A stretch of 64,000 bases of DNA from Limnochordales bacterium (GCA_014896315.1 JADBKP010000010.1:1-64000), one strand, 5' to 3'. Positions 17,596 through 33,791 are shown, counted from the first letter of the stretch. The notes: generated by a model not told the origin, from the letters alone. Numbers and translations are program-made.

Positions 17596-19485
17596 GTGAG
17601 ATTGTCGTGGCGGTGGGAGCGAGACGGAAGCGAAAGCTGGTTGCGGTGGCGGGGTCGGGTTGGAGTTCTCATCCTTGTATTGGCGCTGGCGTTGGTAGCG
17701 CTGGTAGTCGCACTGCCGCCCGGGCAGAGAGTTGCGCCGGCACAGGCAACGGCCGGGACGACAGGGGAGTCGGGTTCCAGGTCTGCGGCGGCAGAGGAGG
17801 AAATCGCGGGCGAGTATGACATTCTCATCTACGGCGGCTCATTTGCCGGTGTGGCGGCGGCGATTAGTGCTGCCTCTGTGAACCCGTCGGCCCGTATTCT
17901 GCTGGTCAACCCGCAGACAGCCCTGGGCTCTATCGGCACGGTGGGTGGCCAGAACTACATGGACGTGCGGAACTGGCCGGAGGACCCCCACGCCTACCTC
18001 TGGAACAAGGGCTGGCAGCGCCCCTACGTCACCATGGGCACGTATGACCGAATCTTTGCCAGGACCGATCGGGCTTACAACACCGACGAAGCGGCCGCGC
18101 TGCTCGAGGCGATGGTGCGAGAGCATTCCAACGTGACGATAGTTCACAATACCGACTTGCTGGCGGTAGAGTCGGTGATGGTTTCGTCGCCGGAGAGTGC
18201 GGGTAATGCGGGCGGGGCGGCGGGTGCTGTGGCCGGTTCTGCTGAAGCCGGACCCGGGGTTGCCAGGTTGACCGCCGTCACGCTGCAGAAAGTGCGAAAA
18301 GATCCGGCTACCGGATATGTCCTGTTTGACACCGAGAGTAAACCCCGGACCGTGCGGGCGAAGATCTTTGTCGATGCTTCGGATAACGGTCGTCTCACCC
18401 GGCTGTCGGGCCATTTCGTGGGGACGCTGGGCCGGGCTGATACCGACGGCGAGCAGCGCTTTATGGCCCACACGCTGATGTTCAAGATCCGGGGTGTGAA
18501 TGTGCCCCGGCTTATTCAGGAGATGAACTCGCCTACCGGAGACTGGCGGGGGTTGTGGGACCGGGATGGCACGCTTCTCTTCTATGGCGGCTGGAAGACT
18601 GCCGACCCCCGGACAGGTGCGCCGGCGGTGCGGGAGTTCAACGGGAAGACGCCCCGCTTCCACATCAAGCCGGCCAATGTGGCGCAGAACGGAACCGGTT
18701 CGGATGAATATTGGGTCAATATGCTGCTGATCTACAACGTCGACCCGCGTATGGAGGAGAAAGATCGGGGGACGCTCCGCTTCCCTAAACCGGCCAACGA
18801 CGATCCGGTGGTGCCGCCCTGGTCGCTGGACCAGGCCTGGGTTGAGGCGAGGAAGGTAATCGATACGCCTGAGTTTCTGGCGGCGTTGCGCAGTTTCCCG
18901 GCATTTGAGAATGTGGAGCTGGTACGGGATAAGGACGGGAAGCCGGCTGTGGGCGAGATGCTGTACATTCGCGAAGCGCTCCACACCAGCCTGCGACCGG
19001 ACGCCGACGTGGCGGAGTGGATACGGCCCTACAACTATGCCCTCAACCAGCTGGAAGTGACGTACGCAGGCAGGGGCCCGGATGATGGCGAGGATGCTGC
19101 CAACTTTGATCATCGGGTCGGCCTGATCTTCTATTGGATGGACTCCAACGGCTACGAGAAAGTCTGGCGGAACGGCCAGTGGGAGCCGGCAGCAGATCCG
19201 TTGCCATACGGGCGTGGGCCGAGCAATCCCGCCTATCTGCCTTATGAGGCGCTGGTGACGCGGAACATCGAGAATCTGCTGGTGCCGAACGGGTCGGCCA
19301 ATGCCGGGCGGTGGGCCTGGTCGATGCTGCGGGTGATTCCCAACCTGACCGTGGCTGGGGATGCGGCGGGAGTGGCCGCCGGGCTGGCGCTGCGGGAGGG
19401 GTGGACGGTCAGCCGGCCGCCGGAACAGGCGATCAGGAGAGTGCAGGAGGAGTTGCGGCGGCTTGGGGCGAGGTTGGATAAGTAG
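17596..19485 (+). CDS. exported FAD-dependent oxidoreductase
   Basis: A 629-residue flavoprotein with a strong N-terminal hydrophobic segment (about residues 21-45) that lacks a clear twin-arginine motif, then a linker and the FAD-binding fold YDILIYGGSFAGVAAAISAA at about 76. RILLVNPQTALGSIGTVGGQNYMD is the second nucleotide-binding turn with the GG-rich signature of the FAD_oxidored (PF12831) group. Near the C-terminus, NLTVAGDAAGVAAGLALREG is the closing FAD-contact motif. It belongs to a family of uncharacterised oxidoreductases often found beside carbohydrate-active enzymes. The GTG start is 3 bases after the DUF4434 stop, behind GGGGGAG. Its acceptor and substrate are unknown; how FAD would be loaded outside the membrane is an open point. 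Confidence 0.85.
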   Translation: MRLSWRWERDGSESWLRWRGRVGVLILVLALALVALVVALPPGQRVAPAQATAGTTGESGSRSAAAEEEIAGEYDILIYGGSFAGVAAAISAASVNPSARILLVNPQTALGSIGTVGGQNYMDVRNWPEDPHAYLWNKGWQRPYVTMGTYDRIFARTDRAYNTDEAAALLEAMVREHSNVTIVHNTDLLAVESVMVSSPESAGNAGGAAGAVAGSAEAGPGVARLTAVTLQKVRKDPATGYVLFDTESKPRTVRAKIFVDASDNGRLTRLSGHFVGTLGRADTDGEQRFMAHTLMFKIRGVNVPRLIQEMNSPTGDWRGLWDRDGTLLFYGGWKTADPRTGAPAVREFNGKTPRFHIKPANVAQNGTGSDEYWVNMLLIYNVDPRMEEKDRGTLRFPKPANDDPVVPPWSLDQAWVEARKVIDTPEFLAALRSFPAFENVELVRDKDGKPAVGEMLYIREALHTSLRPDADVAEWIRPYNYALNQLEVTYAGRGPDDGEDAANFDHRVGLIFYWMDSNGYEKVWRNGQWEPAADPLPYGRGPSNPAYLPYEALVTRNIENLLVPNGSANAGRWAWSMLRVIPNLTVAGDAAGVAAGLALREGWTVSRPPEQAIRRVQEELRRLGARLDK

Positions 19486-19548
19486 CCGGGCGGGAGCGGG
19501 ATCGCAGGCCGCGGAGCGCAGGCCTGGCGACATAACCGGACAGGCACC

Positions 19549-19577
19549 TTGACAGACCGGGCCAAAACGGTTAACAT
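19549..19577 (+). promoter_or_regulatory. sigma-A promoter of the SRP RNA gene
   Basis: TTGACA at 19549-19554 and TAACAT at 19572-19577 are 17 bases apart. Transcription would start near 19584, leaving a short 5' precursor before the SRP RNA 5' end at about 19602. Confidence 0.75.
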
Positions 19578-19601
19578 TGATAGGCACAGCGCAAAATTAG
19601 G

Positions 19602-19875
19602 TCTTGTCGTGCTAGGCGGGGAGGTAGCGGTGCCCTGTACCCGCAATCCGCTGCAGCGGGGCTGAACTCCCGCCCGAGGGGGGGCCTTGTGGGGACTGCC
19701 CCCGGTATGGAGCGATGATGGCCAGGACCCGCGCAATAGGAACTTGTGAACCCCGTCAGGTCCGGAAGGAAGCAGCGGTAAGCAAGGCCACCTGTGTGCC
19801 GCGGGCAAGCCTGGTCTGAGTCCCCAGCCGAGGTTACGCCCGGAAGACCTGCTTCGACGGCGGGTGCACGACAGG
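19602..19875 (+). ncRNA. ffs: signal recognition particle RNA, large (Bacillus) type
   Basis: The sequence closely follows the B. subtilis scRNA. The 5' domain reads CGTGCTAGGCGGGGAGGTAG and then GCGGTGCCCTGTACC, the Alu-domain core. The apical domain IV, which binds Ffh and FtsY, is GTCAGGTCCGGAAGGAAGCA at about 19758-19777, including the GGAA tetraloop and the asymmetric loop. The 3' end GGGTGCACGACA pairs with the 5' TGTCGTGC. It is about 270 bases long, so it carries the Alu domain as in Bacilli and Clostridia. The RNA directs ribosome-nascent chains to the membrane. Its position just before dnaX is the same as in many Bacillota. Confidence 0.95.
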
Positions 19876-19883
19876 GTTTGCGA

Positions 19884-19928
19884 GTGCCCGGCGCCTGGCC
19901 TGCGAGGCCACGACGGGCACTTTTTCTT
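19884..19928 (+). terminator. intrinsic terminator after SRP RNA
   Basis: GTGCCCG (19884-19890) pairs with CGGGCAC (19914-19920), with inner GGCCT/AGGCC pairing, followed by TTTTTCTT at 19921-19928. Confidence 0.9.
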
Positions 19929-20017
19929 AGTGGCGTGTTGAGGTCTGGGCTCCCTCAGACCGGCAGAATGGCATTGACCTGAGTTTGTCTCTGGTAAAGT
20001 CCGAAGAGGGTAGGGGC

Positions 20018-22240
20018 ATGGCGTACTTATCACTCTATCGCCGCTGGCGGCCGCAGACTTTTGCCCAGGTAGTGGGGCAGCAGCACGTGGTTCGCACCTT
20101 GCAAAACGCCCTGCGGAGCGGACATGTAGCCCATGCCTACCTTTTCGCTGGCCCCCGGGGAACGGGCAAGACCACCATCGCCAGACTTCTGGCCAAAGGC
20201 CTCAACTGTGCCAGGGGAGTGACCCCCGAACCCTGCCGCGAGTGTGAATCTTGCCGCCGCATTGCCGACGGGACATCCCTCGACTGCCTGGAGATCGACG
20301 GTGCCTCCAACCGGGGCATAGACGAGATCCGCGAACTGCGGGAGCGGAGCAAGTTTGCGCCCCAGGAAGGGCCGTACAAGGTCTACATCATAGACGAAGT
20401 TCACATGCTCACGACTGAGGCGTTCAACGCCCTGCTAAAGACGCTGGAGGAGCCCCCGGAGCATGTGGTTTTCGTGCTGGCAACTACCGAGGCCCACAAA
20501 GTGCCTGCAACCATCCTCTCCCGCTGTCAGCGTTTCGACTTTCATCGCTTTGGCGAAGAGGATGTGGCCGAGCACCTGTCCCGGGTTTGCGCGGCCGAAG
20601 GGGTACAGGCCACCCCGGAAGCGTTGCGCCTGATCGCCCGCCATGCCGAAGGGGGGATGCGGGATGCCCTCAGCCTTCTGGAGCAGTGCGTTGTCTATGC
20701 CGGCGCTGATACTGACACCGAAGGTGAGAGCGCTGGCGCCCCCGATGCGGCGAGCAGGCGGACCATTGATGAAGAGACAGTTGCTGCGGTCCTGGGCCTT
20801 GTCCCGGGCGAGACGATTGAACGGTTTTACCGTGCTCTGAAGGCCGGCGATGTAGCCGCCGCCCTGGGTGTGGTGGAAGAGGTTTTTGCCGGCGGGGCTG
20901 ACATCCGGCAGTTCGTTCACACTTTTGCCGTGTACCTGCGGGAGCTGCTCCTGGCCACCGCCGGATCAGGACCGGAAGCCGCCTTGCTGCTGCAATGGGT
21001 CGAGCTGCTCGCCGACGCGGAAGTGCAGCTCCGGGCGGGAGCATCACCCCGGTTTGTGCTCGACCTTCTGGTTTTGCGCCTGGCGCTCGGGAGGGTGGCA
21101 GAGGTACGGCCGGTAGTGGTACAGCCGGCGGGGGAGCAGGCAGGAGAAAAACAAGAGGTGGCGAGTCGTCTGGCTGAACTGGAGTCCCGCGTGGCACGCC
21201 TGGAGGAGATGCTGCTTAGACGGCAGCCGGGTGCCGCGGCCTCGTTCTGGGAGGCGGCGGAAATGGTTCGGCGGCAGGGAGAAGGCCCCCCGGCCCATGC
21301 CCCGGTCCAAGCTCCGGCCGATGCTAAGTCCTCGTCCCACGTCCGGCCGCCGGCCGAAGCCCCGGTCAACGTCCAGCCCCAAGCCCAGGCGCAGGGACGG
21401 GCTGCGGCGTCGCTATCCGCTCCGGCGGGGGAGGGAGCACACGACGAGGCCCGATCCATCGCTCAAGCTCAGACTCAGGTTGAGGCCCAGGCCCAGCGAG
21501 AGACTCAGGCTCAGGCCCAAGGACCATCGGTGGCGCAAGCTCAGGCGCAGGCCGAGGCTCAGGCCCGAGCCCTGGCCCATACCCCCGCCGGCTCGCCGGC
21601 TCCGGCAGCCGGCGCCGGAGCGGAAGCCACTTGCGTCCCCGGTGAGGAGCTGGCCTCTGCCTGGGAGATGATCCTGGCCCAGGTGCGCCAGCGCAGCATC
21701 CAGGTGCAAGCGCTGCTCCGGGAGGCACGGCCGGCAATACTGCTGGGTGACACACTCCATCTGGTTCTGCCGGCGGGTTGTGCATTTCACAAGAGCGGTT
21801 TGGAACAGCCCAGGGTTCTGGAGATGCTGGAACGGGTTGTTTCCCGGGCGCTGCGGCGGGCGACTCACCTCAAGTTTCACCTGGGCGAACTGCCCGCCGA
21901 CCTGAGTTCAATCCTGGCAGGAGCTCGTGCGAAAACCGGACCGCCAACCGGACCTCAACCCGGACCTCAACCCAGTCCGCAACCCGGACCGCAAACCGCA
22001 CCGAGGACCGGTTCGGGAATAGGGCCGAACGAACCGGCAGCCGGACCTGCAGTCGGACCAGCAGTTGCCAGTGAGCCGGCAGTTCAAGCGGGGCTGCCGG
22101 TTGAGAGGTGGGAACAGGCCGACGCCCTGCTCAACCACCCGCTGGTCAAAAGAGCACTGGAGCTGTTTGGGGGACGGGTAGTCCAGGTGATCCCCGCAGA
22201 GAGCCGACCGCCCGAGAGCCCACGGGCGGAGAACCAATAG
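20018..22240 (+). CDS. dnaX: DNA polymerase III subunit gamma/tau
   Basis: A 740-residue clamp-loader ATPase that opens the beta clamp at the replication fork. Domains: AAA+ module with Walker A GPRGTGKT (45-52), a zinc-binding set C64, C73, C76, C79, Walker B DEVHML (about 126-131) and the sensor region VLATTEAHKVP; collar helices to about residue 400; an Ala/Gln/Pro-rich low-complexity linker (about 425-545); a folded tau-like block starting ELASAWEMILAQVRQRS (about 550-640); and a second repetitive linker of 12-bp units before a terminal amphipathic segment. No classical slippery heptamer for gamma production was found. The ATG at 20018 follows GAGGGTAGGGG. It heads the conserved dnaX-ybaB-recR operon. 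Confidence 0.97.
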   Translation: MAYLSLYRRWRPQTFAQVVGQQHVVRTLQNALRSGHVAHAYLFAGPRGTGKTTIARLLAKGLNCARGVTPEPCRECESCRRIADGTSLDCLEIDGASNRGIDEIRELRERSKFAPQEGPYKVYIIDEVHMLTTEAFNALLKTLEEPPEHVVFVLATTEAHKVPATILSRCQRFDFHRFGEEDVAEHLSRVCAAEGVQATPEALRLIARHAEGGMRDALSLLEQCVVYAGADTDTEGESAGAPDAASRRTIDEETVAAVLGLVPGETIERFYRALKAGDVAAALGVVEEVFAGGADIRQFVHTFAVYLRELLLATAGSGPEAALLLQWVELLADAEVQLRAGASPRFVLDLLVLRLALGRVAEVRPVVVQPAGEQAGEKQEVASRLAELESRVARLEEMLLRRQPGAAASFWEAAEMVRRQGEGPPAHAPVQAPADAKSSSHVRPPAEAPVNVQPQAQAQGRAAASLSAPAGEGAHDEARSIAQAQTQVEAQAQRETQAQAQGPSVAQAQAQAEAQARALAHTPAGSPAPAAGAGAEATCVPGEELASAWEMILAQVRQRSIQVQALLREARPAILLGDTLHLVLPAGCAFHKSGLEQPRVLEMLERVVSRALRRATHLKFHLGELPADLSSILAGARAKTGPPTGPQPGPQPSPQPGPQTAPRTGSGIGPNEPAAGPAVGPAVASEPAVQAGLPVERWEQADALLNHPLVKRALELFGGRVVQVIPAESRPPESPRAENQ
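21935..22006. repeat. 12-bp minisatellite in the dnaX C-terminal linker
   Basis: Six consecutive 12-base units related to CCCGGACCTCAA run from 21935 to 22006, each coding four residues of a Thr/Gln-Gly-Pro-Gln/Pro type linker. Unit changes keep the reading frame. Another simple-sequence block (CAGGCC-like hexamers, Ala-Gln repeats) codes the first linker at about 21370-21590. Confidence 0.85.
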
Positions 22241-22338
22241 CCAGGAAGCTTGTCCCGGCCCGGGTGAACTGCGGACAGACAGGATTCCGGGACAGCGGGG
22301 CGCACAGAGAGATAGAGAGATAGAGAGGGTGTTCCTGT

Positions 22339-22665
22339 GTGAACGTGCAGAAACTCTTCAAACAGGCGCAGAAGCTTCAGGCCGAGATGGCCCGGGTGCA
22401 GGAAGAACTGGGACAGAAGACGGTAGAGGGCACGGCCGGCGGCCAGGCGGTGAAGGTGGTGGCCAACGGGAAGCAGGAGATCCTTTCCGTTACCATTGAC
22501 CCGGCCGCCGTCGATCCGGCAGACGTGGAAATGTTGCAGGACCTCGTTCTGGCCGCCGTCAACGAAGCCTTGCGCAAGTCCCGGGAGCTGGCAAGTGAGG
22601 AGATGGCCAGGGTGACGCAGGCCATGGGATTGCCGGGACTGCCGGGCGGGCTGGCCGGCTTCTGA
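22339..22665 (+). CDS. ybaB: YbaB/EbfC nucleoid-associated protein
   Basis: A 108-residue dimeric DNA-binding protein of the YbaB/EbfC family (YaaK in Bacillus). Family features are FKQAQKLQAEMARVQEELGQ at the N-terminus, VKVVANGKQEILSVTIDPAAVD in the middle and the C-terminal helix LVLAAVNEALRKSREL followed by a Met/Gly-rich tail. The GTG start at 22339 lies behind GAGAGGGTG. It sits about 100 bases after dnaX and 18 bases before recR, the invariant order in Bacillota; its link with RecR suggests a role in DNA repair or nucleoid structure, but the precise function is not settled. Confidence 0.95.
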   Translation: MNVQKLFKQAQKLQAEMARVQEELGQKTVEGTAGGQAVKVVANGKQEILSVTIDPAAVDPADVEMLQDLVLAAVNEALRKSRELASEEMARVTQAMGLPGLPGGLAGF

Positions 22666-22683
22666 GGGGGCGGGTTTGACGGC

Positions 22684-23280
22684 ATGCAGTATCCCCGCCC
22701 GTTGAGCCGCCTGATAGAGGAGTTGGGGCGACTGCCCGGGATCGGCACAAAGACCGCCCAGAGGCTGGCCCTTTACCTGGTAGGACGCCCGCCGGCGGAA
22801 GTGCAGGCGTTAGCCCAGGCAATCCTCGAGGCGAGTGAGAAAATAGTATTTTGTTCACAATGCTTCAATATTACTGATGTTGACCCCTGCCGCCTCTGCA
22901 CCGATCCACGCCGGGACAGTAGCCTGCTTTGCGTGGTGGAACAGCCCCGCGACGTTTTTGCTCTCGAACGGACCGGGGAGTTCCGCGGGCGCTACCACGT
23001 CCTGCACGGTGCGATCTCCCCGATGGAAGGCATCGGTCCGGACGATCTCCGTATCAAGGAATTGCTGGTCCGCCTCGAACAGCATCCCGTGGACGAGGTG
23101 ATCCTGGCCACCAACTCTACGGTGGAAGGGGAGGCGACCGCCATGTACCTGGCGCGGCTCCTCAAACCGGCAGGAATCAAGGTGAGCCGGATCGCCTACG
23201 GTCTGCCCGTAGGCGGTGACCTCGAGTATGTGGATGAAGTGACCCTCAGCCGGGCGCTGGAAGGACGCCGACAGCTTTAG
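22684..23280 (+). CDS. recR: recombination protein RecR
   Basis: A 198-residue protein of RecFOR-type recombinational repair that helps load RecA on gapped DNA. The order of elements is standard: helix-hairpin-helix ([20 protein letters not shown]), Cys4 zinc finger ([16 protein letters not shown]), then Toprim domain ([34 protein letters not shown]) and a C-terminal Walker B-like [21 protein letters not shown]. The ATG follows GAGGGGGCGGG. It ends the dnaX-ybaB-recR operon. The gene normally next in line, a yaaL/DUF2508 gene, is found only 4.3 kb further on, after a minus-strand glycosylation cassette. Confidence 0.98.
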
Positions 23281-23342
23281 CTAAAGCAGGTACGGTCTCG
23301 CGGCACCGTAGCCAGAGCTGCTACGGTTCGTCCCATGGAGTG

Positions 23343-25037
23343 CTAGGGTTTGAACTCTAGCAGCACACCCATGGAGTGGCTGGCTATCTCCTGCACCGGG
23401 TATCGTCTGGCGAGCTGTGCTCCAACGTGCCTTGGCACAATGAGCAGCAGGGGATTGCTGCTCTGCTGAATGATGCCTTCTACTTCCTGCTCGGAATGGG
23501 CATAACGTACCTGCCGACGGGCGTAGAAGGTGGGGCTGGCAATCCCCAGCATGCTCACGATACGGTGATGCGGGGTTGCCACCTGCGCAGCCTCCAAGAC
23601 GAGTGGTTTTCCGGGCTTGAATTCTTCAACAATTGGTTGCACTACCCAATTAAACCCGCATGCTAAAACCACTGCCTCAAGTACTATGGCTGTCATGAGG
23701 GTACGCCGCCGGGCATAGCAATGCCCCACAAGCCAAGCAGCGGTGGCACCAGCCAGCAGTACCGGGGGGAACAATAGGACCATTCGGTAGGCTCGAACGT
23801 ACTCATCCGGTATGCTCTTCCTCAAGCTCAGGAGAGCCACCAACGAAACAAGGGAAACGACGGCGGCTCCAAGAACATAGCTCTTCAGCAAACGCAACTC
23901 CCTGTCTGTGCTCGGGATGCTGTCCAGCCAATGTCCTGTCAGAATCGCAAGCGGGATGAACGCAGGTAAGATGTACCCCGGTAGCTTGGTGCTGGAAAGA
24001 GAGAAGAACATTACTACAGCGCCAAACCACCAAAGGAGCAGCTTGACACCTGATATGCGACGGCCTGGCCAGGTTCCTTCCTGCTGCGGATGACTGGGGC
24101 CTAGGTCGTACAAGCGGGCCCGATTCGATAGGCTGAACACGGTTTCCTTGCCTACAAACCAGAGCAGCGGGCTCCAAGGCACAAAACCGATCAAGATAAC
24201 TATCACATAATAGAACCAAGGTTCACCGTGCTCCTCGATCGGCTGAGTAAACCGAGTGAGCATGTGGTAACCGAAGTAGTCAGTAACCCATGCCATCCCC
24301 TCCCGCTGCCAGATGGCGAGGTGCCAGGGTGCAGCAATAAGCACGAAGAGAGCAACGCCCAGCCAAAACCATCCCTTCCTCAGCTCCCGAAGCGCCTGGC
24401 GAGGACCGATCCACAAGAGTAGCGCGCTGCCCGGAAGGAGGAGTGCGACTGGTCCCTTGGTGAGGGTACCTAGGGCGGCGGCACCCCAGAGCAGGAGGTA
24501 GTACGAATGCTTTCTCTCATTGATGGTCAACCAGCCTGCGAACATTGTCAGACCAATGAAAAAACTCAGAGCCGTATCAATGATTCCTATCCGCGATTCC
24601 AGAAACCAAGCGATGCTCGTACCAAGAACCAGGCCGCTCGTCCACCCAGTAGAAGATCCAAACAGATGCCCACCAAATAGGCTTGTGAGTAGCATACCTG
24701 CTACGCCGAAGAGGGCCGAAGTGAGGCGAACTGCCAGTTCGCTAGGTCCGAGAATTCGGATGAATGCGGCCGTAAGCCAGAGTGTTAGTGGCGGCTTGTC
24801 GTAACGGGGCGCGTAGTTCCAGTGTGGGACGACCCAATCTCCACTCTCCACCATCTCACGAGAGATCTCTCCATAGATTGCTTCGTCAATGTCCCACAAG
24901 CTGGAATAACCCAACCGAACAAGCATCACTACAAGTACCAATGCCCAAAGTAGCGGATAGACCCAACGCGGGCCGTGGTGGCCTATGCTGCCTTGCTGAG
25001 ATCCATGACTTTGTGCGTCACCTTTCCACGGAACCAT
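23343..25037 (-). CDS. GT39/ArnT-like membrane glycosyltransferase
   Basis: A 564-residue polytopic membrane protein of the PMT/ArnT (GT-C fold) superfamily. These enzymes use a polyprenyl-phosphate sugar as donor on the outer face of the membrane. The first external loop carries the catalytic acidic signature SSLWDIDEAIYGEISREMVESG with DKPPLTLWL after it, as in ArnT. About 11-13 hydrophobic segments follow, then a soluble C-terminal region from about 440. The ATG at 25037 has GCGGGAG close upstream. It is the last gene of the minus-strand cassette GT2-SMR-PHP-GT39, where GT2 would make the donor and the small transporter would flip it. The acceptor (wall polymer, lipid or protein) is unknown. 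Confidence 0.88.
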   Translation of the reverse strand: MVPWKGDAQSHGSQQGSIGHHGPRWVYPLLWALVLVVMLVRLGYSSLWDIDEAIYGEISREMVESGDWVVPHWNYAPRYDKPPLTLWLTAAFIRILGPSELAVRLTSALFGVAGMLLTSLFGGHLFGSSTGWTSGLVLGTSIAWFLESRIGIIDTALSFFIGLTMFAGWLTINERKHSYYLLLWGAAALGTLTKGPVALLLPGSALLLWIGPRQALRELRKGWFWLGVALFVLIAAPWHLAIWQREGMAWVTDYFGYHMLTRFTQPIEEHGEPWFYYVIVILIGFVPWSPLLWFVGKETVFSLSNRARLYDLGPSHPQQEGTWPGRRISGVKLLLWWFGAVVMFFSLSSTKLPGYILPAFIPLAILTGHWLDSIPSTDRELRLLKSYVLGAAVVSLVSLVALLSLRKSIPDEYVRAYRMVLLFPPVLLAGATAAWLVGHCYARRRTLMTAIVLEAVVLACGFNWVVQPIVEEFKPGKPLVLEAAQVATPHHRIVSMLGIASPTFYARRQVRYAHSEQEVEGIIQQSSNPLLLIVPRHVGAQLARRYPVQEIASHSMGVLLEFKP

Positions 25038-25131
25038 TTTCTCCCGCTTCTTCCTGCCAACACATTCTCAATGTAGATGGTCGTTCTCGTTAGCCAAGTA
25101 GACGCTGTACTGGTCACTCCTGGGGACTTCC

Positions 25132-26232
25132 TCAGTTCGCCTCCGGTACTAGCCAAAACGGCTGCGACCAGGCCATTTCTCCGGACTGACTCCTCACTTC
25201 AACGCGTACAAACCCTTCAGCACCTGAAGGCGCATATTGAGCGGAAAAACCAGCTACCTGTTCTACCGATGCTCCCGAGCCGTTAATGAACCGGATCTCC
25301 GCGGGCTCTTCGCTGTGGACGTGCACCATTATACGGTTCTCTTGCACGCCGAAATCTGCGCTGACCCCGGTTGAAGCGTAGAAACTCCCCCTCCGCAGTG
25401 CTGCTTTCAATGCTTCTTGCGATATGCCGTCGGTCTTAACAACGATCCAGCCGAGATTAAGGCGTTCGGGACTGTGGGAATCGTCCACTGCTATGGCCCA
25501 CACGGGCCGATTGGGACCCAGTCGTCTGATCAACTCATGCCAACGGCGCGTATCCTCGACTGGATCTGAATGAGGGTTATACACTTCTACCAATTGGTAA
25601 CCGGTGAGAGCCAGCATCCGAGGTAGAGTCCACTGGCCTGTCTGAAGATTGCCTACCCAGCTCGGGTGGGCGAGAGCGACGATACCTCCCGCCGAGAGGG
25701 CGGTATCGATTCGCTTTTGCGCATTGCCACTTGTCTCGTGTGTTTCCACAAACAATCGCAGAATGTGACAGCCCAGGGGCCAAAAAGGCCAAGGTACAGT
25801 GTTCTCCTCTCCGGTAATTATCACAAACGTTGGATCGTCGAGCTCGTGGTGAACAGTTACCTTGTCATGATCCGTCAGTGCCACGTAAGTATATCCAGCG
25901 TCACGATAAGCTTGAAGTGCCTCTCTGACTGACCAATTACCATCTAACGATCGATCCGTATGCACGTGCAGTTGGGCCTTGTAATAAACGCCATGATAAG
26001 CATACGGATCGATAACATCAAACGACCTGAGTGGCTTCAGGTGCATTTCCGACGATACCGGTGGATATGCTTGCGGGTCAACTTCAGCTGGCTTTCGTAA
26101 TACCAGCAGTCCACAAACCACCAATATTAAGCTGAACACAAACACAACCGAACGTATACAGAACCGTGCCAATCGACTGCGCCTCTGAGACGATCTATTC
26201 CCACGTCGCAATATCCACCCTGGACGACCCAT
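25132..26232 (-). CDS. membrane-anchored PHP-domain phosphoesterase
   Basis: A 366-residue protein with an Arg-rich N-terminus and one transmembrane segment (about residues 24-46), then a PHP metal-dependent hydrolase domain. Metal-ligand motifs in order are QLHVHTDRS (H-x-H), VALTDHDKV (D-H), ITGEENTV (E), VALAHPSW (H) and IAVDDSHS (D-x-H). A C-terminal beta-rich part (about 290-366) resembles the accessory sheet seen in CehA/McbA-like PHP proteins. The active site would face outside. It lies between a small multidrug-resistance-type transporter and the GT39 gene in a cassette, so it may remove a phosphate or phosphodiester from a surface glycan or lipid-linked intermediate; this is inference. 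Confidence 0.85.
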   Translation of the reverse strand: MGRPGWILRRGNRSSQRRSRLARFCIRSVVFVFSLILVVCGLLVLRKPAEVDPQAYPPVSSEMHLKPLRSFDVIDPYAYHGVYYKAQLHVHTDRSLDGNWSVREALQAYRDAGYTYVALTDHDKVTVHHELDDPTFVIITGEENTVPWPFWPLGCHILRLFVETHETSGNAQKRIDTALSAGGIVALAHPSWVGNLQTGQWTLPRMLALTGYQLVEVYNPHSDPVEDTRRWHELIRRLGPNRPVWAIAVDDSHSPERLNLGWIVVKTDGISQEALKAALRRGSFYASTGVSADFGVQENRIMVHVHSEEPAEIRFINGSGASVEQVAGFSAQYAPSGAEGFVRVEVRSQSGEMAWSQPFWLVPEAN

Positions 26233-26249
26233 CAAGTACCAAACCCTTC

Positions 26250-26606
26250 CTACGGTCTACCAATGAGGGCTACCCCGGCACAAATCAGCAGCACTCCAAG
26301 CACCTTTATCAGCGACAGGCTTTCCCTGAAAAAGAGCCAGGAAAGCAGTACCACTAACACATATCCTAGGCTCAACATTGGATAGGCAGTACTCAGCTCC
26401 ACCCTTGAAAGGACGACCAGCCACAGCACAGCGCTCACCGCATACAGGAGCAAGCCTGCGGCAACAAAGGGCTGAGTGAGCATGCTGATAATACACCCAG
26501 GACTGAGCTTGTCTACCGATCCGAAGACAGTTATTCCCTTCTTCAGGGACAACTGTCCGAAAGCTCCAAGAAGGATGGAGATCGCGATGGCAGTGCCTGG
26601 TCTCAT
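26250..26606 (-). CDS. small four-helix EamA/SMR transporter (ArnE-like)
   Basis: 118 residues forming four hydrophobic helices, the size of EmrE/ArnE-type small transporters and half an EamA transporter. It has a charged/Gly N-terminal helix (AIAISILLGAFGQLSLKKG), a central VELSTAYPMLSLGYVLVVLLSW, which is the conserved A-Y-P/G-Y signature, and FRESLSLIKVLGVLLICAGV at the end. The start overlaps the GT2 stop by four bases (ATGA), so the two are translationally coupled. By analogy with ArnE/ArnF it may flip a polyprenyl-phosphate sugar made by GT2. A drug efflux role is possible but less consistent with the context. Confidence 0.85.
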   Translation of the reverse strand: MRPGTAIAISILLGAFGQLSLKKGITVFGSVDKLSPGCIISMLTQPFVAAGLLLYAVSAVLWLVVLSRVELSTAYPMLSLGYVLVVLLSWLFFRESLSLIKVLGVLLICAGVALIGRP

Positions 26607-27544
26607 CGATGATTCTCTGCGAGTGCTGTCTCCGGCCTAGCGGCTCCGGTGGAGAGCCGGCAGTGACGCCAGCGGATGCGGATCAGGTCAGCGAACATTC
26701 TGGGCGGATCGGCCCAAACATTGACCGTGCTTTCTGGGGAATATGCCCAGCTAACCGGCACCTCCGCGATGCGATAGCCCAGCTTCTCTGCAATGGTAAG
26801 CGCTTCTATGTCGAAGGCAAACCCGGCAACAGTGAGACGTGTGAAAACCTCCTTCGCCGCTTCCCGTGTGAAACACTTAAAGCCGCATTGGGGATCCTTA
26901 ATCTCTCGCAGGGCGAGGAGACCAACTAACCCCCGAAAGGTTCGTCCCATCAAGCGCCGGGACCAGGGTTGGGGAACCTTTATCTCCGAGTAAGGGACAT
27001 AGCGCGAACCAATGGCAATGTCACACCCGGAGCGTAGGTACTGGAGCAGCTTATCAACTTCTGTAATTGGCGTGGAGAGGTCGGCGTCGGTAAAGAGCAC
27101 GTACTCGCCCCTAGCCAACCGCATACCCTCCGCAACCGAGTAGCCCTTGCCGCGGTTCACCTTCCGATCGATGATCTTGAGGCCTGAAATGCGACCTTCA
27201 AAAGAGCGTGCGATCTTCACAGTATCGTCCGTGCTGCCGTCGCTGACCACAATCACCTCACAAGGGAACGGCTGCTGCTCTATGTATGCGGCAATACTTT
27301 CCAGCGAGGGGCCCAACCGCCGGGACTCGTTGTATGCAGGTATAACAACTGAAAGGAACACTTCGCGTTCCCGGTCCAAAACGAGCACCTCCCCGGATTC
27401 TAAGCCGAATACCAAAGCCCAGCTGGCTACCAAGTGATTCTGCGTGAGAGGCGGTCTTTCCTGCCGTAGCCAGCGATTTACACGCGACACCAGGGAGCGG
27501 AAAGGATAGCGCAGCGGCAGGCTGTTCATACTGGGGTTAGACAC
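26603..27544 (-). CDS. GT2 polyprenyl-phosphate sugar synthase (ArnC/DPG synthase-like)
   Basis: A 313-residue family-2 glycosyltransferase similar to dolichyl-phosphate glucose synthases. GT-A signatures are SVVIPAYNESRRLG (nucleotide binding), VIVVSDGSTDDT, the DxD-type metal motif FTDADLSTP and the acceptor region DPQCGFKCFTREA; AFDIEALTIAEKLGYRIAEVPVSW is typical of the Alg5-like group. There are no C-terminal membrane helices. About 65 residues precede the domain and are not conserved; the true start may be an ATG at 27529 rather than the GTG at 27544. The gene begins only about 26 bases from the divergent yaaL-like gene, so its promoter probably overlaps that gene. First gene of the glycosylation cassette. 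Confidence 0.9.
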   Translation of the reverse strand: MSNPSMNSLPLRYPFRSLVSRVNRWLRQERPPLTQNHLVASWALVFGLESGEVLVLDREREVFLSVVIPAYNESRRLGPSLESIAAYIEQQPFPCEVIVVSDGSTDDTVKIARSFEGRISGLKIIDRKVNRGKGYSVAEGMRLARGEYVLFTDADLSTPITEVDKLLQYLRSGCDIAIGSRYVPYSEIKVPQPWSRRLMGRTFRGLVGLLALREIKDPQCGFKCFTREAAKEVFTRLTVAGFAFDIEALTIAEKLGYRIAEVPVSWAYSPESTVNVWADPPRMFADLIRIRWRHCRLSTGAARPETALAENHR

Positions 27545-27570
27545 TACCAGCGAAGGGTGGAAACCCCAGG

Positions 27571-28050
27571 ATGAACGTGATGGTGAGAGTTGCCTCCCGC
27601 TGGCAACTTGTCCGGGAGAAGTTCCGACAGCTTGGGCCGGCGTTAGCCGTGGTGATCCGCACCACCGTTGAGACTCAATTCCAGGTTTGCCGGGAGCGGA
27701 AGCTTGCCGCCCGGCGGGAGGCGGTAGGCCACGATTTGCTGGAAGAGGTGAATCGAGCTCGTCGCGAATGGTTGCAGGCCCAGAACTACTTCGAGTGGGT
27801 TACCAGCCCTGAGGAGATTGAACATGCTGCCTTCTGGGTTAAGGAGGCGGAGCGTAAGTACATACTCCTGTGGGAACAGGCGCGTCGGTTGCAGGCAGCG
27901 GCTTGGAGTTGTGGAAAAAAGTGTAACAACAGGATTGCTGCCCCCCGTGACCGGTGGTATAATCACGCTGGTTTGTCGTACCCCGCTCCAACGGAGAGGT
28001 TGGAGCCGCTAGTCCAAGGGGAGGAGGTGAAGCCAGGTGCGCCCGTATGA
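27571..28050 (+). CDS. yaaL: YaaL-like DUF2508 protein
   Basis: A 159-residue reading frame whose middle (about 48-110: HDLLEEVNRARREWLQAQ, then an acidic PEEIEHAAFWVKEAERKY helix) matches the small coiled-coil DUF2508/YaaL family, which in Bacillus follows recR. YaaL is normally 70-90 residues. The N-terminal 45 residues are extra, and the last 45 run through the rpsF promoter (27935-27963) and leader and overlap the rpsF start by 14 bases, so the 3' end looks recruited. A weak ribosome site (GGGTGG...CCCCAGG) precedes the ATG. Function unknown. Its position supports the view that the glycosylation cassette was inserted between recR and yaaL. Confidence 0.65.
   Translation: MNVMVRVASRWQLVREKFRQLGPALAVVIRTTVETQFQVCRERKLAARREAVGHDLLEEVNRARREWLQAQNYFEWVTSPEEIEHAAFWVKEAERKYILLWEQARRLQAAAWSCGKKCNNRIAAPRDRWYNHAGLSYPAPTERLEPLVQGEEVKPGAPV
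27935..27963 (+). promoter_or_regulatory. sigma-A promoter of the rpsF-ssb-rpsR operon
   Basis: TTGCTG at 27935-27940 and a perfect TATAAT at 27958-27963 are separated by 17 bases. It lies inside the 3' part of the yaaL-like reading frame, about 70 bases before rpsF. Confidence 0.8.
27985..28036 (+). promoter_or_regulatory. structured rpsF leader, candidate S6:S18 autoregulatory element
   Basis: GCTCCAAC (27985-27992) and GTTGGAGC (27999-28006) form a perfect 8-bp stem with a 6-base GGAGAG loop, followed at once by CCGCTAGTCC and the GGGGAGGAGGTG ribosome site. Known rpsF leaders bind the S6:S18 heterodimer through a stem with an exposed CCG. A CCG (28006-28008) sits at the base of this stem. 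Assignment is by position and these features, not by a covariance model. Confidence 0.5.
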
Positions 28051-28588
28051 AGTGATGGTGATCTTTGACCCGAGCAAGGTCGATGGTGACGAAGCGGTGG
28101 CCAGGATGCTCGACCGGATCCAGGGAATTGTGACTGGTGACGGTGGGAAGGTAACCAACATCGACCGCTGGGGACGGCGCCGGCTGGCTTACGAGATCGG
28201 AGGGTCAACTGAGGGTTACTACGTGGTCATCCAGTTCGAGGCGGAGCCGAAGACTGCCGCTGAGCTCGGACGGATACTGCGTATCACCGATGGCGTTCTC
28301 CGGCACATGATTGTCCGGCCGTATCCGATCACCCGCAGGGCTCGGGTTGCGCAAGCAGCCCGTCGCCGGAACGCCGAGGCCGCCGAGGCCGCTAACCAGG
28401 GTGCCGGTCAGGCGACGCCGGCGGCGGAAAGTGGGCCCGAGCAGGCAGAGGCTGACGGTAAGGCCGGCAATGATGGCAATGCCGAGGTCGGCGAAGTGGC
28501 CGACACGGGCCAGGCAGACGCAGACAGCGCAGTGGATGGCGCGGAGGCGGCTCAGCCTGTGGCCGGCGAGGTGGCCGAGAGGGGTTGA
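28037..28588 (+). CDS. rpsF: 30S ribosomal protein S6 with a long acidic tail
   Basis: A 183-residue S6, which binds 16S rRNA in the platform with S18. The canonical fold covers about residues 1-100: MRPYEVMVIFDPSKVD, DRWGRRRLAYEIGGSTEGYY and LRITDGVLRHMIVRPYP are recognisable. The remaining 80 residues form an Ala/Glu/Asp/Gly-rich disordered tail that normal S6 proteins (about 95-110 residues) lack; in the E. coli protein a short C-terminal Glu tail is added by RimK, so an acidic tail here is encoded rather than added. The GTG start follows GGAGGAGGTG. First gene of rpsF-ssb-rpsR. Confidence 0.97.
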   Translation: MRPYEVMVIFDPSKVDGDEAVARMLDRIQGIVTGDGGKVTNIDRWGRRRLAYEIGGSTEGYYVVIQFEAEPKTAAELGRILRITDGVLRHMIVRPYPITRRARVAQAARRRNAEAAEAANQGAGQATPAAESGPEQAEADGKAGNDGNAEVGEVADTGQADADSAVDGAEAAQPVAGEVAERG

Positions 28589-28634
28589 GCCGGAGCTCAG
28601 TGTGAAGTTGAGCTGCTGATTGGGGGCGCGCAGC

Positions 28635-29135
28635 TTGTTCAACAAGGTGATTTTGATCGGGCGTCTTGTGGCCGACCCGCAGTTGCGCTATACGCAGACT
28701 GGCAAAGCAGTAACCAGTTTCCGGCTGGCCGTGGACCGGGGCTTTGCCAGCAGTGGGGGTGCGGGTCTTGCCGGGCAAGAGCGGGAGCGGCAGACGGATT
28801 TCTTCGACATTATCACCTGGAACAAGCTGGCTGAAACTTGCGCCAACTATCTGGGTAAAGGCCGGTTGGTGGCCGTGGAGGGAAGACTCCAGGTCCGGGA
28901 TTACGAAGGGCAGGACGGGCAGCGGCGGCGGGCGGTAGAGATCGTTGCCAGTGACGTCCGGTTCTTGGATTCCGGCCGTGGCCAGGGCGGTGGGGCGGCC
29001 CACGCCGATGACCAGGGCGGTGATGCACCTGGCTTTGGCCTGCCGGGTGATTTGGGGACCGGTTCTGGAGCCGGCCACCCGGGTGGCTTTCCTGGAGAAG
29101 AAGATGAGTATGACGGACCCGAAGTTCCATTTTGA
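28635..29135 (+). CDS. ssb: single-stranded DNA-binding protein
   Basis: A 166-residue SSB that coats ssDNA at forks and recruits partners. The OB-fold covers about 1-112 (NKVILIGRLVADPQLRYTQ at the start, FFDIITWNKLAETCANYLGKG in the core, VEGRLQVRDYEGQDGQRRR). An insertion of about 13 Gly/Ala-rich residues lies in the L12 loop (SSGGAGLAGQE). The Gly-rich linker ends in the partner-binding acidic tip DEYDGPEVPF, close to the conserved DDDIPF-type ending. The TTG at 28635 is chosen because GGGGGCG lies 6 bases upstream and homology starts with FNKV. Middle gene of rpsF-ssb-rpsR. Confidence 0.96.
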   Translation: MFNKVILIGRLVADPQLRYTQTGKAVTSFRLAVDRGFASSGGAGLAGQERERQTDFFDIITWNKLAETCANYLGKGRLVAVEGRLQVRDYEGQDGQRRRAVEIVASDVRFLDSGRGQGGGAAHADDQGGDAPGFGLPGDLGTGSGAGHPGGFPGEEDEYDGPEVPF

Positions 29136-29151
29136 TGGCAGGTGAAGGCTC

Positions 29152-29382
29152 ATGGCAAAGGACCGCAAGGGGCGCAAGCGCCGCAAGGTATGTGCCTTCT
29201 GCCAGGACTGGATCGACATGGTCGACTACAAGGATGTCAGCCGGTTGCGCCGATTCTTGAGCGAGCGCGGTAAGATTCTGCCCCGCAGGATCACCGGCAA
29301 CTGCGCCCGACATCAGCGCAGCCTGACGAGGGCTATCAAGCGGGCACGGGAGATGGCTCTGCTTCCTTACGTAGTTGACTGA
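29152..29382 (+). CDS. rpsR: 30S ribosomal protein S18
   Basis: A 76-residue S18, partner of S6 on the 30S platform. Recognisable: the basic N-terminus, [20 protein letters not shown], the helical [33 protein letters not shown] signature in its normal place, and a short C-terminal end. It carries the zinc-binding (C+) form, with Cys14, Cys17, Cys50 and His53 positioned as ligands, implying that zinc-free paralogues may exist elsewhere. The ATG has AGGTGAAGG upstream. It ends the operon and is followed by a strong terminator. Confidence 0.97.
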
Positions 29383-29413
29383 GTCCACCAGGACCGGGTA
29401 GGAAGAGATCTGG

Positions 29414-29446
29414 GCAGTTGCAGATGCAAACTGCAACTGCTTTTTT
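29414..29446 (+). terminator. intrinsic terminator of rpsF-ssb-rpsR
   Basis: GCAGTTGCAG (29414-29423) and CTGCAACTGC (29431-29440) form a perfect 10-bp stem with a 7-base loop, followed by six Ts. Confidence 0.95.
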
Positions 29447-29778
29447 ATGCCCGTGCTCCTGCATTTGCTGGCATAACGTACCTGGCGCAATGTGCAACAG
29501 TCAGAGCAGTAAGCCCTGCACCGCCCGTACCGGGCCCGGGTTGCCTATCAGCTTGATACCGAGGTGACACAATTTACGCTGCTGTGCCGCTGCCGGGGTC
29601 TGTCGCCGGCGGTCTCCGCATTGCCCGGCCGCAGCCGCGGGCCGGGCTTTGAGCTCACCTGGGGCGGCAGGAATTGTCGGTACGTGCGTGCAGGGAAGTG
29701 GTATGCGTCCGCCGAAGCCTTGAAGACAGCATGCCGGATTGTTGGTGCCGGCCAATTCGCCGGGGAGGAGCGGAAGCC
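29447..29778. other. intergenic stretch with one doubtful small frame
   Basis: Between the rpsR terminator and the MazG-like gene, a GTG at 29564 opens a plus-strand frame that could give a small basic protein containing GFELTWGGRNCRYVRAGKWY, but it runs out of frame into the MazG-like gene, lacks a good ribosome site and matches nothing I recognise. I see no promoter. It may be a decayed gene. Confidence 0.3.
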
Positions 29779-30093
29779 ATGGACCAGGTCGGTATGGATT
29801 CGGACATTGCCCGGCAGGTCAAGGCGCTGGAATGGCTCAAGGCTGAGCTGGTAGCCGGGGTGGGCGATTTCTTCCGCAGCTTGCGAGCGGGGGGCGAACA
29901 GACGGCGGATGCCCTGGCGAACATCATTATGCTCGCATTGATTCTCTCCCGGCGGCTGGGGATTGATCCTGCCCAGCTTGATCGGAAGGTTGACTTGCGC
30001 CTGCGAGCTAACCTGGAGAAGAGACACGAGCTAGAAGCCTGGTTTGGTGACCTGAGTGCGATTCTCCAGTACAGAAACGGTTCTAAGAGGTGA
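29779..30093 (+). CDS. MazG-like family protein
   Basis: A 104-residue small helical protein of the MazG-like group (PF12643 type), seen in spore-forming Bacillota just before the yybS/DUF2232 gene. The helices are DIARQVKALEWLKAELVAGVGDFFRSL, ADALANIIMLALILSRRLG (with the Ala-Asn-Ile-Ile core typical of the family) and LDRKVDLRLRANLEKRHELEAWFGDL. The full MazG E-x-x-E...E-x-x-D metal set is not obvious, so nucleotide pyrophosphohydrolase activity should not be assumed. The ATG is preceded by GGGGAGGAGCGG. The next gene starts 8 bases after the stop. Confidence 0.8.
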   Translation: MDQVGMDSDIARQVKALEWLKAELVAGVGDFFRSLRAGGEQTADALANIIMLALILSRRLGIDPAQLDRKVDLRLRANLEKRHELEAWFGDLSAILQYRNGSKR

Positions 30094-30100
30094 AAGGCGC

Positions 30101-31294
30101 TTGGGCCGCAGGCCGGAATTGACTGTGGCGCTGCTTGCCGGGATCGGTCTGATCCTGATTGGCTTCACGGTCATGCCCCATCTACTTTTCCTGATCCCTG
30201 CCTGCGTGGCATTGGCCGGTGTAACTCTCGGCAGCCGCAGCGCCATATGGCTCACTATTTGTTTTTCGCTTCTGGCCGTGGGGTTGGCAGGAGAGACCGG
30301 GTGGCTCGTGCCCTTCCTGTGCCTGAGTGGATTCAGCCTAGCGAGGGGACTCAAGTCGCGCCGCGAACCGCTCGAGATCATTATCATCACCGGCGCTGTC
30401 ATGGCCGCCGGCGTCATTGCCTGGTTGGCCGTTGGGGTTCTCCTCTCCGGTGAATCGCTGCGAGAAGGCCTCGGCATCTGGCTGCAAGAGATGCGTGCCG
30501 AGCTTTTGTCTGATATTGCCGGACTGCCCCGGGACGAACAGGAGGCCGTGCTCCAGCGCTTCGATCTCTTCCTGCAACTGGTCTGGCCGGCGTCGGTCCT
30601 TCTTTCCATGCTCTTTGGCGCAGGCATCAACTACGTAGCCGCCCGCTGGGTTGTGCAACGGTTTGCCGCGGCGCACCTCGCTGATTGGCCGCCCTTCTCG
30701 CACTGGCGGCTGCCCTGGGGGTACTCCTGGGGTGTGATCGGCGGGCTGGGAGCGCTGCTCCTGTCTGAGGCCGCCGGGCCGCAGTTCGGTCCGGGGCTTG
30801 CTGCCATAGGGCTCAACCTGAGCATGGTCTCCTCCACGGTTTTCCTCGTACAGGGGCTGGCGGTCGTCTGGTACTGGCTGTCCCGGACAGGTATGGGTCG
30901 AGGCCTGCGGCTGGCCCTGGTTCTTTTCTCCTTGTTCACAGTCTTCCTGCCGCCCGTCATAACCCTTATTGGTGTCTTCGATTGCTGGTTTGACTGGCGT
31001 CGGCTGGAAAAGCGGGGTAAGGCGGATAAGGCCGGTAAGGCGGGTAGCGAGGGAGGCAAAGAGGGCGGTGAAGCCGGGGAGCAAGGCCGACCTCGGGTGA
31101 AAGTGGAGACGACAGACGAAGCGGCAGAGCCGGTAGAGCCGGTAGAGCCGCGAGGTCCGGGAGGGCCGGTAGGCACCAGTTGCGCGGGCAGTCCCGGCGG
31201 CAGGGAAAAGTCCGGGGGAGCGGGAGCGGCGAGTTCTGACGCTGCGGGAGCTGATGGCAGCGAGGACGCCGGGGAAGAGTCGCGTGGTCGTTGA
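30101..31294 (+). CDS. yybS: YybS family (DUF2232) membrane protein
   Basis: A 397-residue membrane protein with about eight hydrophobic segments in its first 300 residues and a long charged, low-complexity C-terminal tail (from about 305: Lys/Gly/Glu repeats, then Glu-Pro-Val and Ser/Gly/Ala stretches) that family members lack. It has the DUF2232 features of a paired N-terminal hairpin, a central amphipathic region ([22 protein letters not shown]) and ARWVVQRF. The TTG at 30101 is used because AGGTGAAAGG, overlapping the previous stop, is just upstream. In Bacillus the next gene is gdpP; here rplI follows 30 bases later and gdpP is absent. Function unknown. Confidence 0.85.
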
Positions 31295-31323
31295 GGTACG
31301 AGGCAGGAGAAGGAGGAGCGAAG

Positions 31324-31773
31324 ATGCAGGTGATCTTGACTCAAGACGTGAAGGGCCTCGGATCGAAGGGCGATACGGTCAAGGTAGCCGATGGATATGC
31401 CCGCAACTACCTGATCCCGCGCGGGCTAGCCATCGAGGCGACCAAGGCGAATCTCAAGCAACTTGCGGCACAGCAGGCAGAAAGAGCCCGCCAGCTCCAG
31501 CGCAAGGAGAAGGAGGCGGAGGAACTGGCCAGGCGCCTGGAAGCCACTACCGTTCGCATACCGGCGCGAGCCGGTGAGGGTGGCCGCCTCTTTGGGTCGG
31601 TTACCGCCGCGGATATAGCCGAGGCGCTGGCCAAGCTGGGAATCAAGGTAGACAAAAAACAGATCGAATTGGAGGGCCCCATCAAGCAGCTGGGTACCTA
31701 TACAGCGGTCGTGCGGACGCTGCCCGGTAAGACAGCCTCCCTGCGCATTGTGGTGGAGGAAGCTGGGGCATGA
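31324..31773 (+). CDS. rplI: 50S ribosomal protein L9
   Basis: A 149-residue L9 with the standard two-domain shape: N-terminal rRNA-binding domain ([36 protein letters not shown]), long connecting helix ([31 protein letters not shown]) and C-terminal domain ([21 protein letters not shown], then [23 protein letters not shown]). The ATG at 31324 has AGGAGCGAAG upstream. The stop overlaps the lonC start (ATGA), so ribosomal protein and protease are translationally coupled. Confidence 0.98.
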
Positions 31774-33791
31774 AACTTCCCGCCTTCCGCCCATCGTCAC
31801 TGTCGTCGTCCCGTCAGAACCGACGCAGAGGGGGCGAGAACGACGCAAACGGACTGGTAGAGCGGGTCAAAGCTTTGACCGGCTTGATGATGGAGCTTTA
31901 CGGGCCCAAGGAGCTCAAGCGCCGGGTCGTTTACCTGCAGGCGGCCCGGCTGATCCGTTCGGAACGGGTGGAAGAGCAGGTTTGGGGTTTACAGAAACTG
32001 CTCCTGGGAGCAAAGGCGGCGTCTTCGCCGCCCCGAAGTGAGGAGCTTCCCTCTCTTATCGACCAGCTGGAGGAGAAGGTGGCGGAGACGCTCGCCCGGC
32101 GGGTGCTGGAGCGGCGTATTGAGAGAAAGGTCGCCCGACAGCTGGCCGAAAGGCAGGAAGAACATCTACGGGCGTTAAAACTGGAGCTTCTCTCCCAGGA
32201 GGTCGGCCCGGACAATCCCCGCACCCTGCGCAAGTTTGCTGAACTGGAAAAGCAAAAGCGGGTGCACCTGGCCCGCCACGCCTGGGAATTGCTGCGTCCC
32301 CGTTCTTTGGACGAAATCGTGGGGCAGCAGGCCGGCATCCGGATGCTCCTCAGCAAGCTGGCCAGTCCCTTTCCTCAGCACGTGTTGATCTACGGACCGC
32401 CCGGGGTGGGCAAGACGACCGCCGCCCGGCTGGTCCTGGAAGTGGCCAAGCAGCTGCCCTTTACCCCCTTTGGGCCGAACGCCCCCTTTGTTGAGGTGGA
32501 CGGAGCGACGCTGCGCTGGGACCCTAGGGAAGTGGCCAACCCCCTGCTGGGCTCGGTGCATGACCCCATCTACCAGGGGGCCAGGCGTGACCTGGCCGAA
32601 GCGGCGATACCCGAACCGCGGCCCGGCCTGGTTACCGAGGCTCATGGCGGGATACTCTTCATCGATGAGATAGGTGAGATGGATCCGCTGCTTCAGGCCA
32701 AGCTCCTGAAGGTGCTGGAAGAGAAGCGGGTGACATTCGAATCGGCCTATTACGATCCCGATGATCCGCAAGTTCCCAAATACATAAAGCAACTCTTTGC
32801 CGAGGGCGCGCCCGCCGATTTCATACTGGTGGGTGCGACCACCCGCAATCCGGAGGAGATCAATCCGGCACTCCGTTCCCGCTGCGGAGAGGTATTCTTC
32901 GAACCGCTTACTCCCAGCCAGGTGGCCGAAGTAGTGCGCTCGGCGGCTGCCCGGCTGGGCGTCAGGCTCGATGCGGGTGTGCCGGAGCTGATCAGCCGTT
33001 ATACCGGAGAGGGCCGCAAGGCGACTCAGGTGCTGGCCGACGCCTATGGTTTGACCCTCTACCGGCAGGCTGCCGATTCTGAGGCCGGTGAACGTGAAAA
33101 GGGAGAGAAGAGAGCTCTTCCCCGCGATGTTGAACTTACCATGGCTACCGTCGAGGAGATCTTACGCCTTTCCCGGCTTACCCCCAACCCGGCAGTGGTG
33201 ACCGATCGTCCGCCGGAGGTCGGAAGGGTGCTGGCGCTGGGCGTCTTTGGGTTTATCGGTTCGGTGATCGAGGTAGAAGCGATGGCCTACCCGGCCCGGG
33301 AGAGGGGCGGCGGGAGGATACGGTTCAACGAGGCGGCCGGGCAGATGGCCCGCGATTCCCTCTTCAACGCCGTCGCACTCGCCCGCCTGGCATGCGGCCT
33401 GGAGCTGGACGACTGGCATATTCATGTGAATGTGCTCGGTGGTGGCCGGATTGAAGGGCCTTCGGCGGGGGCGGCCATTTTGCTGGCAGTTGTCAGTGCC
33501 CTGCTGAAACTGCCGGTCCGGCAGGATCTGGCGGTCACCGGTGAAGTCTCCCTCCACGGGCGTATACGGGCCGTAGGCGGGATTCCCGCCAAGCTCTACG
33601 GAGCAGCACGGGCGGGAGTTAAGCTGGTGCTGGTGCCTGAGGAGAATCGGCCTGACGTTCCCGCTGAGCTGCCGGAGGGGCTTGAGGTGCGTTATGTCGC
33701 CCACCTGCAGGACCTATGGCGGTGTTCCTTCAATCAAGAGCCTCCCGCGGCGGTGCGGGCACTGCTGGGAGCAGAAAGGTTGAGTGGATGA
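31770..33791 (+). CDS. lonC: spore-type Lon family ATP-dependent protease (LonC)
   Basis: A 673-residue soluble Lon-family protease resembling the spore_lon_C group of Clostridia and Bacilli. There is no classical LAN domain; the first 170 residues are helical and coiled-coil-like ([20 protein letters not shown]). The AAA+ module has Walker [10 protein letters not shown] (209-217), Walker [14 protein letters not shown] (about 293-305) and the Arg-finger region [13 protein letters not shown]. The peptidase domain has the Ser-Lys dyad: Ser565 in IEGPSAGAA and Lys608 in [10 protein letters not shown]. It starts with ATGA overlap on rplI and ends with overlap on aroE. Usually it sits near spore or clp genes; its place between rplI and aroE is unusual. 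Targets are unknown. Confidence 0.93.

Follow-up and report, generated by a model that had tools for sequence, protein, structure and literature searches.

The interval between recR and the yaaL-like gene of this Limnochordales bacterium raises the question of what a membrane-anchored PHP hydrolase contributes to a set of genes for lipid-linked sugar transfer, and of how such a set came to lie there. In the 64 kb of DNA analysed here (the window), recR (positions 22684–23280, plus strand) and a DUF2508 gene resembling yaaL (27571–28050, plus strand; PF10704, 26.7 bits) enclose four genes on the minus strand. An earlier note on this DNA had assigned these genes to a GT2 synthase, an ArnE-like transporter, a PHP enzyme and an ArnT-like GT39 transferase; all four open reading frames are present at this place and on this strand, and Pfam scans agree with each family.

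The GT2 polyprenyl-phosphate-sugar synthase is encoded at 26603–27379 on the minus strand (258 aa with the start proposed here), within an open reading frame listed as 26603–27544. It matches Glycos_transf_2 (PF00535; 108 bits, 6.7e-31), and its closest solved relative is dolichol-phosphate-mannose synthase (5mlz, 2.7e-21). The stop of this gene and the start of the transporter gene overlap in an ATGA (TCAT on the plus strand at 26603–26606), which bears out the coupling described earlier. Translation of the GT2 probably begins at TTG 27379 instead of GTG 27544, because the latter lies in ancestral yaaL-upstream DNA and has no Shine-Dalgarno ahead of it, whereas GGGGAGGTG (27386–27394, minus strand), the proposed Shine-Dalgarno, precedes TTG 27379 at fitting spacing. 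Homologous GT2 proteins begin to match near this TTG. With this start the cassette more likely ends inside a divergent intergenic region of ~190 bp, and the span first proposed for it, 23343–27544, keeps its left end and probably loses its right one.

The next gene (26250–26606, minus strand; 118 aa) encodes an ArnE/ArnF-like SMR transporter of the EamA/EmrE fold, a putative flippase, which scores over the cut-off for both EamA and Multi_Drug_Res and matches EmrE at 7.9e-7. The ArnT-like GT39/GT-C glycosyltransferase (23343–25037, minus strand; 564 aa) has about 10 or more TM segments and matches PMT_2 (65 bits, 1e-17) as well as the ArnT structure 5ezm (7.1e-31). Its D51-E52 and D80-K81 are conserved; D51-E52 is the catalytic pair, and the one-residue variation at the first Asp pair occurs only outside D51-E52. 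This gives the protein the outward acidic pair after TM1 that is expected of a GT-C enzyme.

Three-component glycosylation systems combine a polyprenyl-phosphate sugar synthase, a flippase and a GT-C transferase (PMC11127046, PMC7389260), and the cassette encodes by sequence a GT2-type synthase, a small putative SMR flippase and a GT-C. The GtrA/GtrB/Gtr and CsbB/GtcA/YfhO systems likewise hold a GT2 synthase, a small flippase and a GT-C in one operon (PMC11127046, PMC7389260), and SMR flippases have been proposed in some three-component systems, as in this cassette. The cassette differs from them in its ArnT/GT39 type of GT-C and in an added membrane-anchored PHP metallohydrolase. The GT2/flippase/GT-C scheme is thus already known, and the membrane-anchored PHP as a fourth component is the new part. 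The cassette also resembles the Arn pathway for L-Ara4N addition to lipid A, in that it has an ArnT-like GT39, an ArnE/F-like SMR, a GT2 in the role of ArnC and a hydrolase in the position of ArnD. Membership in that pathway was rejected: ArnA, ArnB and ArnD are missing, and every Arn model scored below its cut-off (ArnT equivalog 167.5 bits against 567; ArnF 65.2 against 99 and ArnE 45.9 against 92 for the SMR protein; ArnC 40.6 against 529 for the GT2). The description of the cassette as self-contained holds in part, as no gene for synthesis of a special nucleotide sugar lies inside it.

The PHP-domain metallohydrolase (25132–26235, minus strand) is 366–367 aa long, depending on whether its gene begins at TTG 26235 or, as it may, at ATG 26232. 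The PHP domain (PF02811) scores 27.4 bits over a cut-off of 26.4 (4.9e-6). In an alignment of 7 homologues, H90, H92, D122, H123, E144, H190, D252 and H254, which from general knowledge we take to be the metal ligands, are invariant. A single TM near residues 27–47 follows an Arg-rich N-terminus, and for this reason, by the positive-inside rule only, the catalytic part is probably outside the cell. This agrees with the extracellular placement in the earlier note for the window protein, but the homologue in genome G304 carries Lys/Arg after its TM, which would place the domain inside and leaves the topology ambiguous there. Structure prediction was poor (too shallow; mean pLDDT 49). The best curated model for the protein is that of CehA/McbA (NF038032), which matches all 7 homologues; the window PHP (74.5 bits) and that of G304 (76.6) fall below its cut-off of 80, and the homologue in G061 passes at 87.1. 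Compared with CehA/McbA, the window PHP has a TM anchor, a C-terminal beta region and a different genomic context. PHP-fold enzymes are also represented in capsule operons by the tyrosine phosphatases CpsB/YwqE, which work in the cytoplasm on a tyrosine kinase; the tie of a PHP enzyme to surface-polymer synthesis is common to both cases, and the cassette has no tyrosine kinase.

The evidence that the PHP protein belongs to the pathway comes from a search of 399 genomes of the phylum with the ArnT protein alone. The best matches after the own genome were in G061 (2.5e-111), G304 (3.6e-88) and G353 (3.9e-81), and in all three the gene directly 5' of ArnT on the same strand encodes a homologue of the window PHP. 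The order is GT2-PHP-ArnT in G061 and G353 (loci L114 and L116), with a PHP/ArnT overlap of 4 nt in L114, and PHP-ArnT-GT2-GtrA in G304 (L115), with an overlap of 7 nt. The flippase therefore varies (SMR here, GtrA in G304, none in G061 and G353) and the PHP-ArnT pair is constant. A PHP profile search of the same sample put the same four loci on top, a ranking that is not independent since the profile contained those three proteins and that of the window. In the ArnT tree, all four PHP-linked transferases fall within one six-member clade (99/98), though not as a clade of their own that excludes the other two members: in G140 the PHP gene is on a different contig, and in G382 ArnT and GT2 are followed by PAP2. 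The flanks read for the 21 other GT39 genes, some of about 1.5 kb and some of 8 kb, contain no PHP gene. Counted by hand, 4/6 against 0/21 would arise by chance with a probability of 15/17550 (~0.0009), a figure weakened by the relatedness of G061 and G353. The loci with a PHP-ArnT pair number only four, and two of these come from a single genus, which counts against the explanation preferred below; they place PHP directly 5' of ArnT in three GTDB families. Because the same kind of transferase adjoins a PHP gene in distant bacteria too, we suggest that the PHP protein is probably a genuine fourth step of the pathway. Through this repeated neighbourhood an uncharacterised PHP hydrolase with a membrane anchor is linked to ArnT-type sugar transfer and gains a testable function; a literature search found no paper joining a PHP domain with ArnT or GT39. 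The expectation that the same genes co-occur elsewhere was thus borne out for GT2-PHP-ArnT, PHP-ArnT-GT2-GtrA and an SMR-PHP pair, but no second copy of the complete set of four, SMR included, turned up.

Some further features of these loci were observed. In G061 and G353 a gene for a surface protein with an SLH domain (Pfam SLH in L114) is divergent from GT2-PHP-ArnT (L114 12990–14240, L116 3217–4473), and a DNA polymerase I-like gene lies 3' of ArnT in both. The G382 locus (L118 851–3777) is an ArnT-GT2-PAP2 operon, with a PAP2 phosphatase in place of PHP.

Judging from the protein families, the cassette would work like a three-component extracytoplasmic glycosylation system with a fourth part. 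The GT2 would load polyprenyl phosphate with the sugar of a nucleotide donor, the SMR protein would carry the lipid-linked sugar across the membrane, and the ArnT-like GT39 would move it onto an acceptor outside. The membrane-anchored PHP would perform a linked hydrolysis at the outer face, trimming either acceptor or donor; likeliest is that it would take a phosphate off the acceptor, be this lipid A or some other phospho-lipid or glycan, and so free a site for the sugar. These biochemical steps, together with the topology of the PHP, its phosphatase activity, the acceptor and the sugar, are what we infer from the genes. We put at about even the chances of the reading as a whole, namely an acquired cassette in which a GT2-SMR-GT39 pathway is joined to PHP hydrolysis at the outer face, most likely acceptor dephosphorylation.

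A phosphatase role is favoured because PHP enzymes are mostly phosphoesterases, because PAP2 stands beside ArnT-GT2 in G382 and because rhizobia offer a precedent for dephosphorylation followed by glycosylation. In these bacteria LpxE/LpxF remove a lipid A phosphate, and RgtE (a GT2) with the RgtD/F transferases adds a sugar (PMC7663294). The scheme of taking a phosphate off and then letting a GT-C add a sugar from a polyprenyl-phosphate donor would be common to the rhizobial system (PMC7663294) and to the one proposed here, with the differences that the hydrolase here is a PHP encoded directly 5' of the transferase in place of LpxE/LpxF, and that lipid A is here a candidate acceptor. Against the preferred reading, the PAP2 gene beside ArnT-GT2 is a single case (G382), and the standard three-component pathway needs no phosphatase.

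Lipid A is a possible acceptor on account of LpxC, the lpx gene scored: the own genome encodes it (2.1e-59), as do 13 of 14 relatives, and among the controls only diderms were positive; Limnochordia are listed among the diderm Bacillota (PMC11448272). In Aquifex, lipid A glycosylation of the RgtD/E/F type occurs without a known matching phosphatase (PMC7663294), and a PHP partner offers a concrete type of candidate for the phosphatase missing from such glycosylation. More specifically, and as a proposal that we regard as unlikely, the PHP could be a new extracytoplasmic lipid phosphatase that dephosphorylates lipid A or its equivalent and hands the position to the ArnT-like transferase, as part of a mobile module of diderm Bacillota. 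Such an enzyme would be unrelated to LpxE/LpxF, which are of the PAP2 type.

The strongest alternative, which we consider doubtful, is that the PHP acts like ArnD, as a deacylase or deformylase, and cuts an amide, ester or carbamate bond of the lipid-linked sugar to make it usable by ArnT. The gene roles match the Arn set (GT2, hydrolase, SMR, GT39), and in G099 a gene for a NodB-type deacetylase overlaps that for a PHP of this group (L152 8862–10812). ArnD acts on the donor and in the cytoplasm, however, and the PHP here is probably outside; the cassette also has no nucleotide-sugar N-acyl genes. The same reading draws on CehA/McbA as the nearest named model, whose founders are carbaryl esterases with an essential His in a PHP-like domain (PMC8292978), but the proteins of the window and of G304 score below its cut-off.

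Against the neighbourhood evidence, the PHP could also be a passenger, that is, a solitary extracellular hydrolase caught within an ordinary three-component system. Most PHPs of this group do not adjoin ArnT, and this includes those closest to the window protein by sequence (57–59%; G032, G043 and G037), all of which are solitary. In the PHP tree the window PHP falls together (96/94) with PHPs that stand alone in two members of the class, the deeper branches being without resolution, so the PHP-ArnT pairing of the window could have arisen apart from that of G061/G353 or G304, and a solitary enzyme of the class could be the source of its PHP. We nevertheless hold the passenger reading to be improbable, as a PHP gene stands directly 5' of ArnT, in the same order and on the same strand, in three GTDB families and beside none of the 21 other GT39s. 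Other members of the PHP group occur in varied surroundings: the homologue in G037 (L073 5166–6277) is interrupted by a frameshift and lies on a contig that has no other cassette genes, and that in G275 (L154 3195–4211) lies right after electron-transfer-flavoprotein-like genes and has no obvious membrane anchor. Viral contigs gave no match, plasmids gave only ~30% identical CehA/McbA proteins and Proteobacterial ArnT, and a profile search of genome contigs with the PHP alignment returned the known loci and one weak match.

A role in quality control or recycling, in which the PHP would split lipid-linked sugar left unused or attack polyprenyl phosphate once it is released, is quite improbable too; the PHP gene does lie directly 5' of that for the transferase that releases polyprenyl phosphate, but we found no precedent, and dephosphorylating the released carrier would be a waste.

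As to how the cassette, taken as a glycosylation pathway with PHP as its probable fourth step, came to lie at this site, comparison with relatives strongly supports gain by horizontal transfer, as the earlier note had proposed. In the one same-genus genome compared (G001, locus L068), recR is followed by yaaL after ~90 bp and the cassette is absent. Alignment with this locus gives approximate ends for the inserted segment (23281–27503): the recR match stops at 23280 (L068 8018), and similarity resumes at 27504 (L068 8039), where an ancestral yaaL-upstream block (27504–27577, plus strand; 81% identity to L068 8039–8112) marks the right junction. Across the class, recR and yaaL are adjacent in 28 of the 29 relatives with recR read (projected distance < ~130 bp), and no relative carried the cassette at this site. 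A search of 60 relatives turned up no close ArnT or GT2; the SMR-PHP pair occurs among them in G009 only, and the full set is absent from every class relative searched.

The composition of the segment is foreign as well. Its G+C is 0.551 against 0.625 in the rest of the window, and nowhere else in the 64 kb does a 4.2 kb stretch have so low a G+C, in line with the A/T-richness that the earlier note had remarked on; GC3 is 0.52–0.64 in the four cassette genes against 0.66–0.82 in their neighbours, and the tetranucleotide correlation with the window (0.26) is the lowest found. The empty sister site, the adjacency in the relatives, the lack of close ArnT and GT2 homologues and this composition together are why we favour gain. 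That the cassette is instead ancestral and was lost in the relatives might be argued from the variability of the junction in G002, but is extremely improbable given the lack of any insert in the sister species and 28 of 29 relatives, the foreign composition and a class without close ArnT or GT2 homologues. The locus is also a case of surface-glycosylation genes moving to the edge of a housekeeping operon, in a diderm Bacillota lineage that branches deeply.

A mobile element or genomic island was rejected: the segment 23281–27503 holds no integrase or transposase gene, and its ends show no target duplication or terminal repeats, only chance-like repeats. The sole exception among the 29 relatives is G002, from another genus of the family, with HflX and an extracellular solute-binding protein between recR and yaaL (L069 5568–8740), so that genes have entered at this junction on at least two occasions. 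Directly 5' of the yaaL start, and overlapping it, lies a hairpin (27523–27577) with 15-base arms (27524–27538 and 27562–27576), common to the sister (L068 8058–8113), with a folding z-score of -2.77 in the window against -0.84 in the sister; it is possibly a regulatory or terminator element. A repeat element was rejected, as the window has no other good copies, and so was a 13-mer match in L069, which lies within a coding region. Intrinsic terminators and sigma-70 promoters showed no excess over shuffles. An Rfam scan of 19000–32000 returned SRP RNA only, namely the large bacterial SRP RNA (RF01854) at 19607–19871 on the plus strand, immediately 5' of dnaX.
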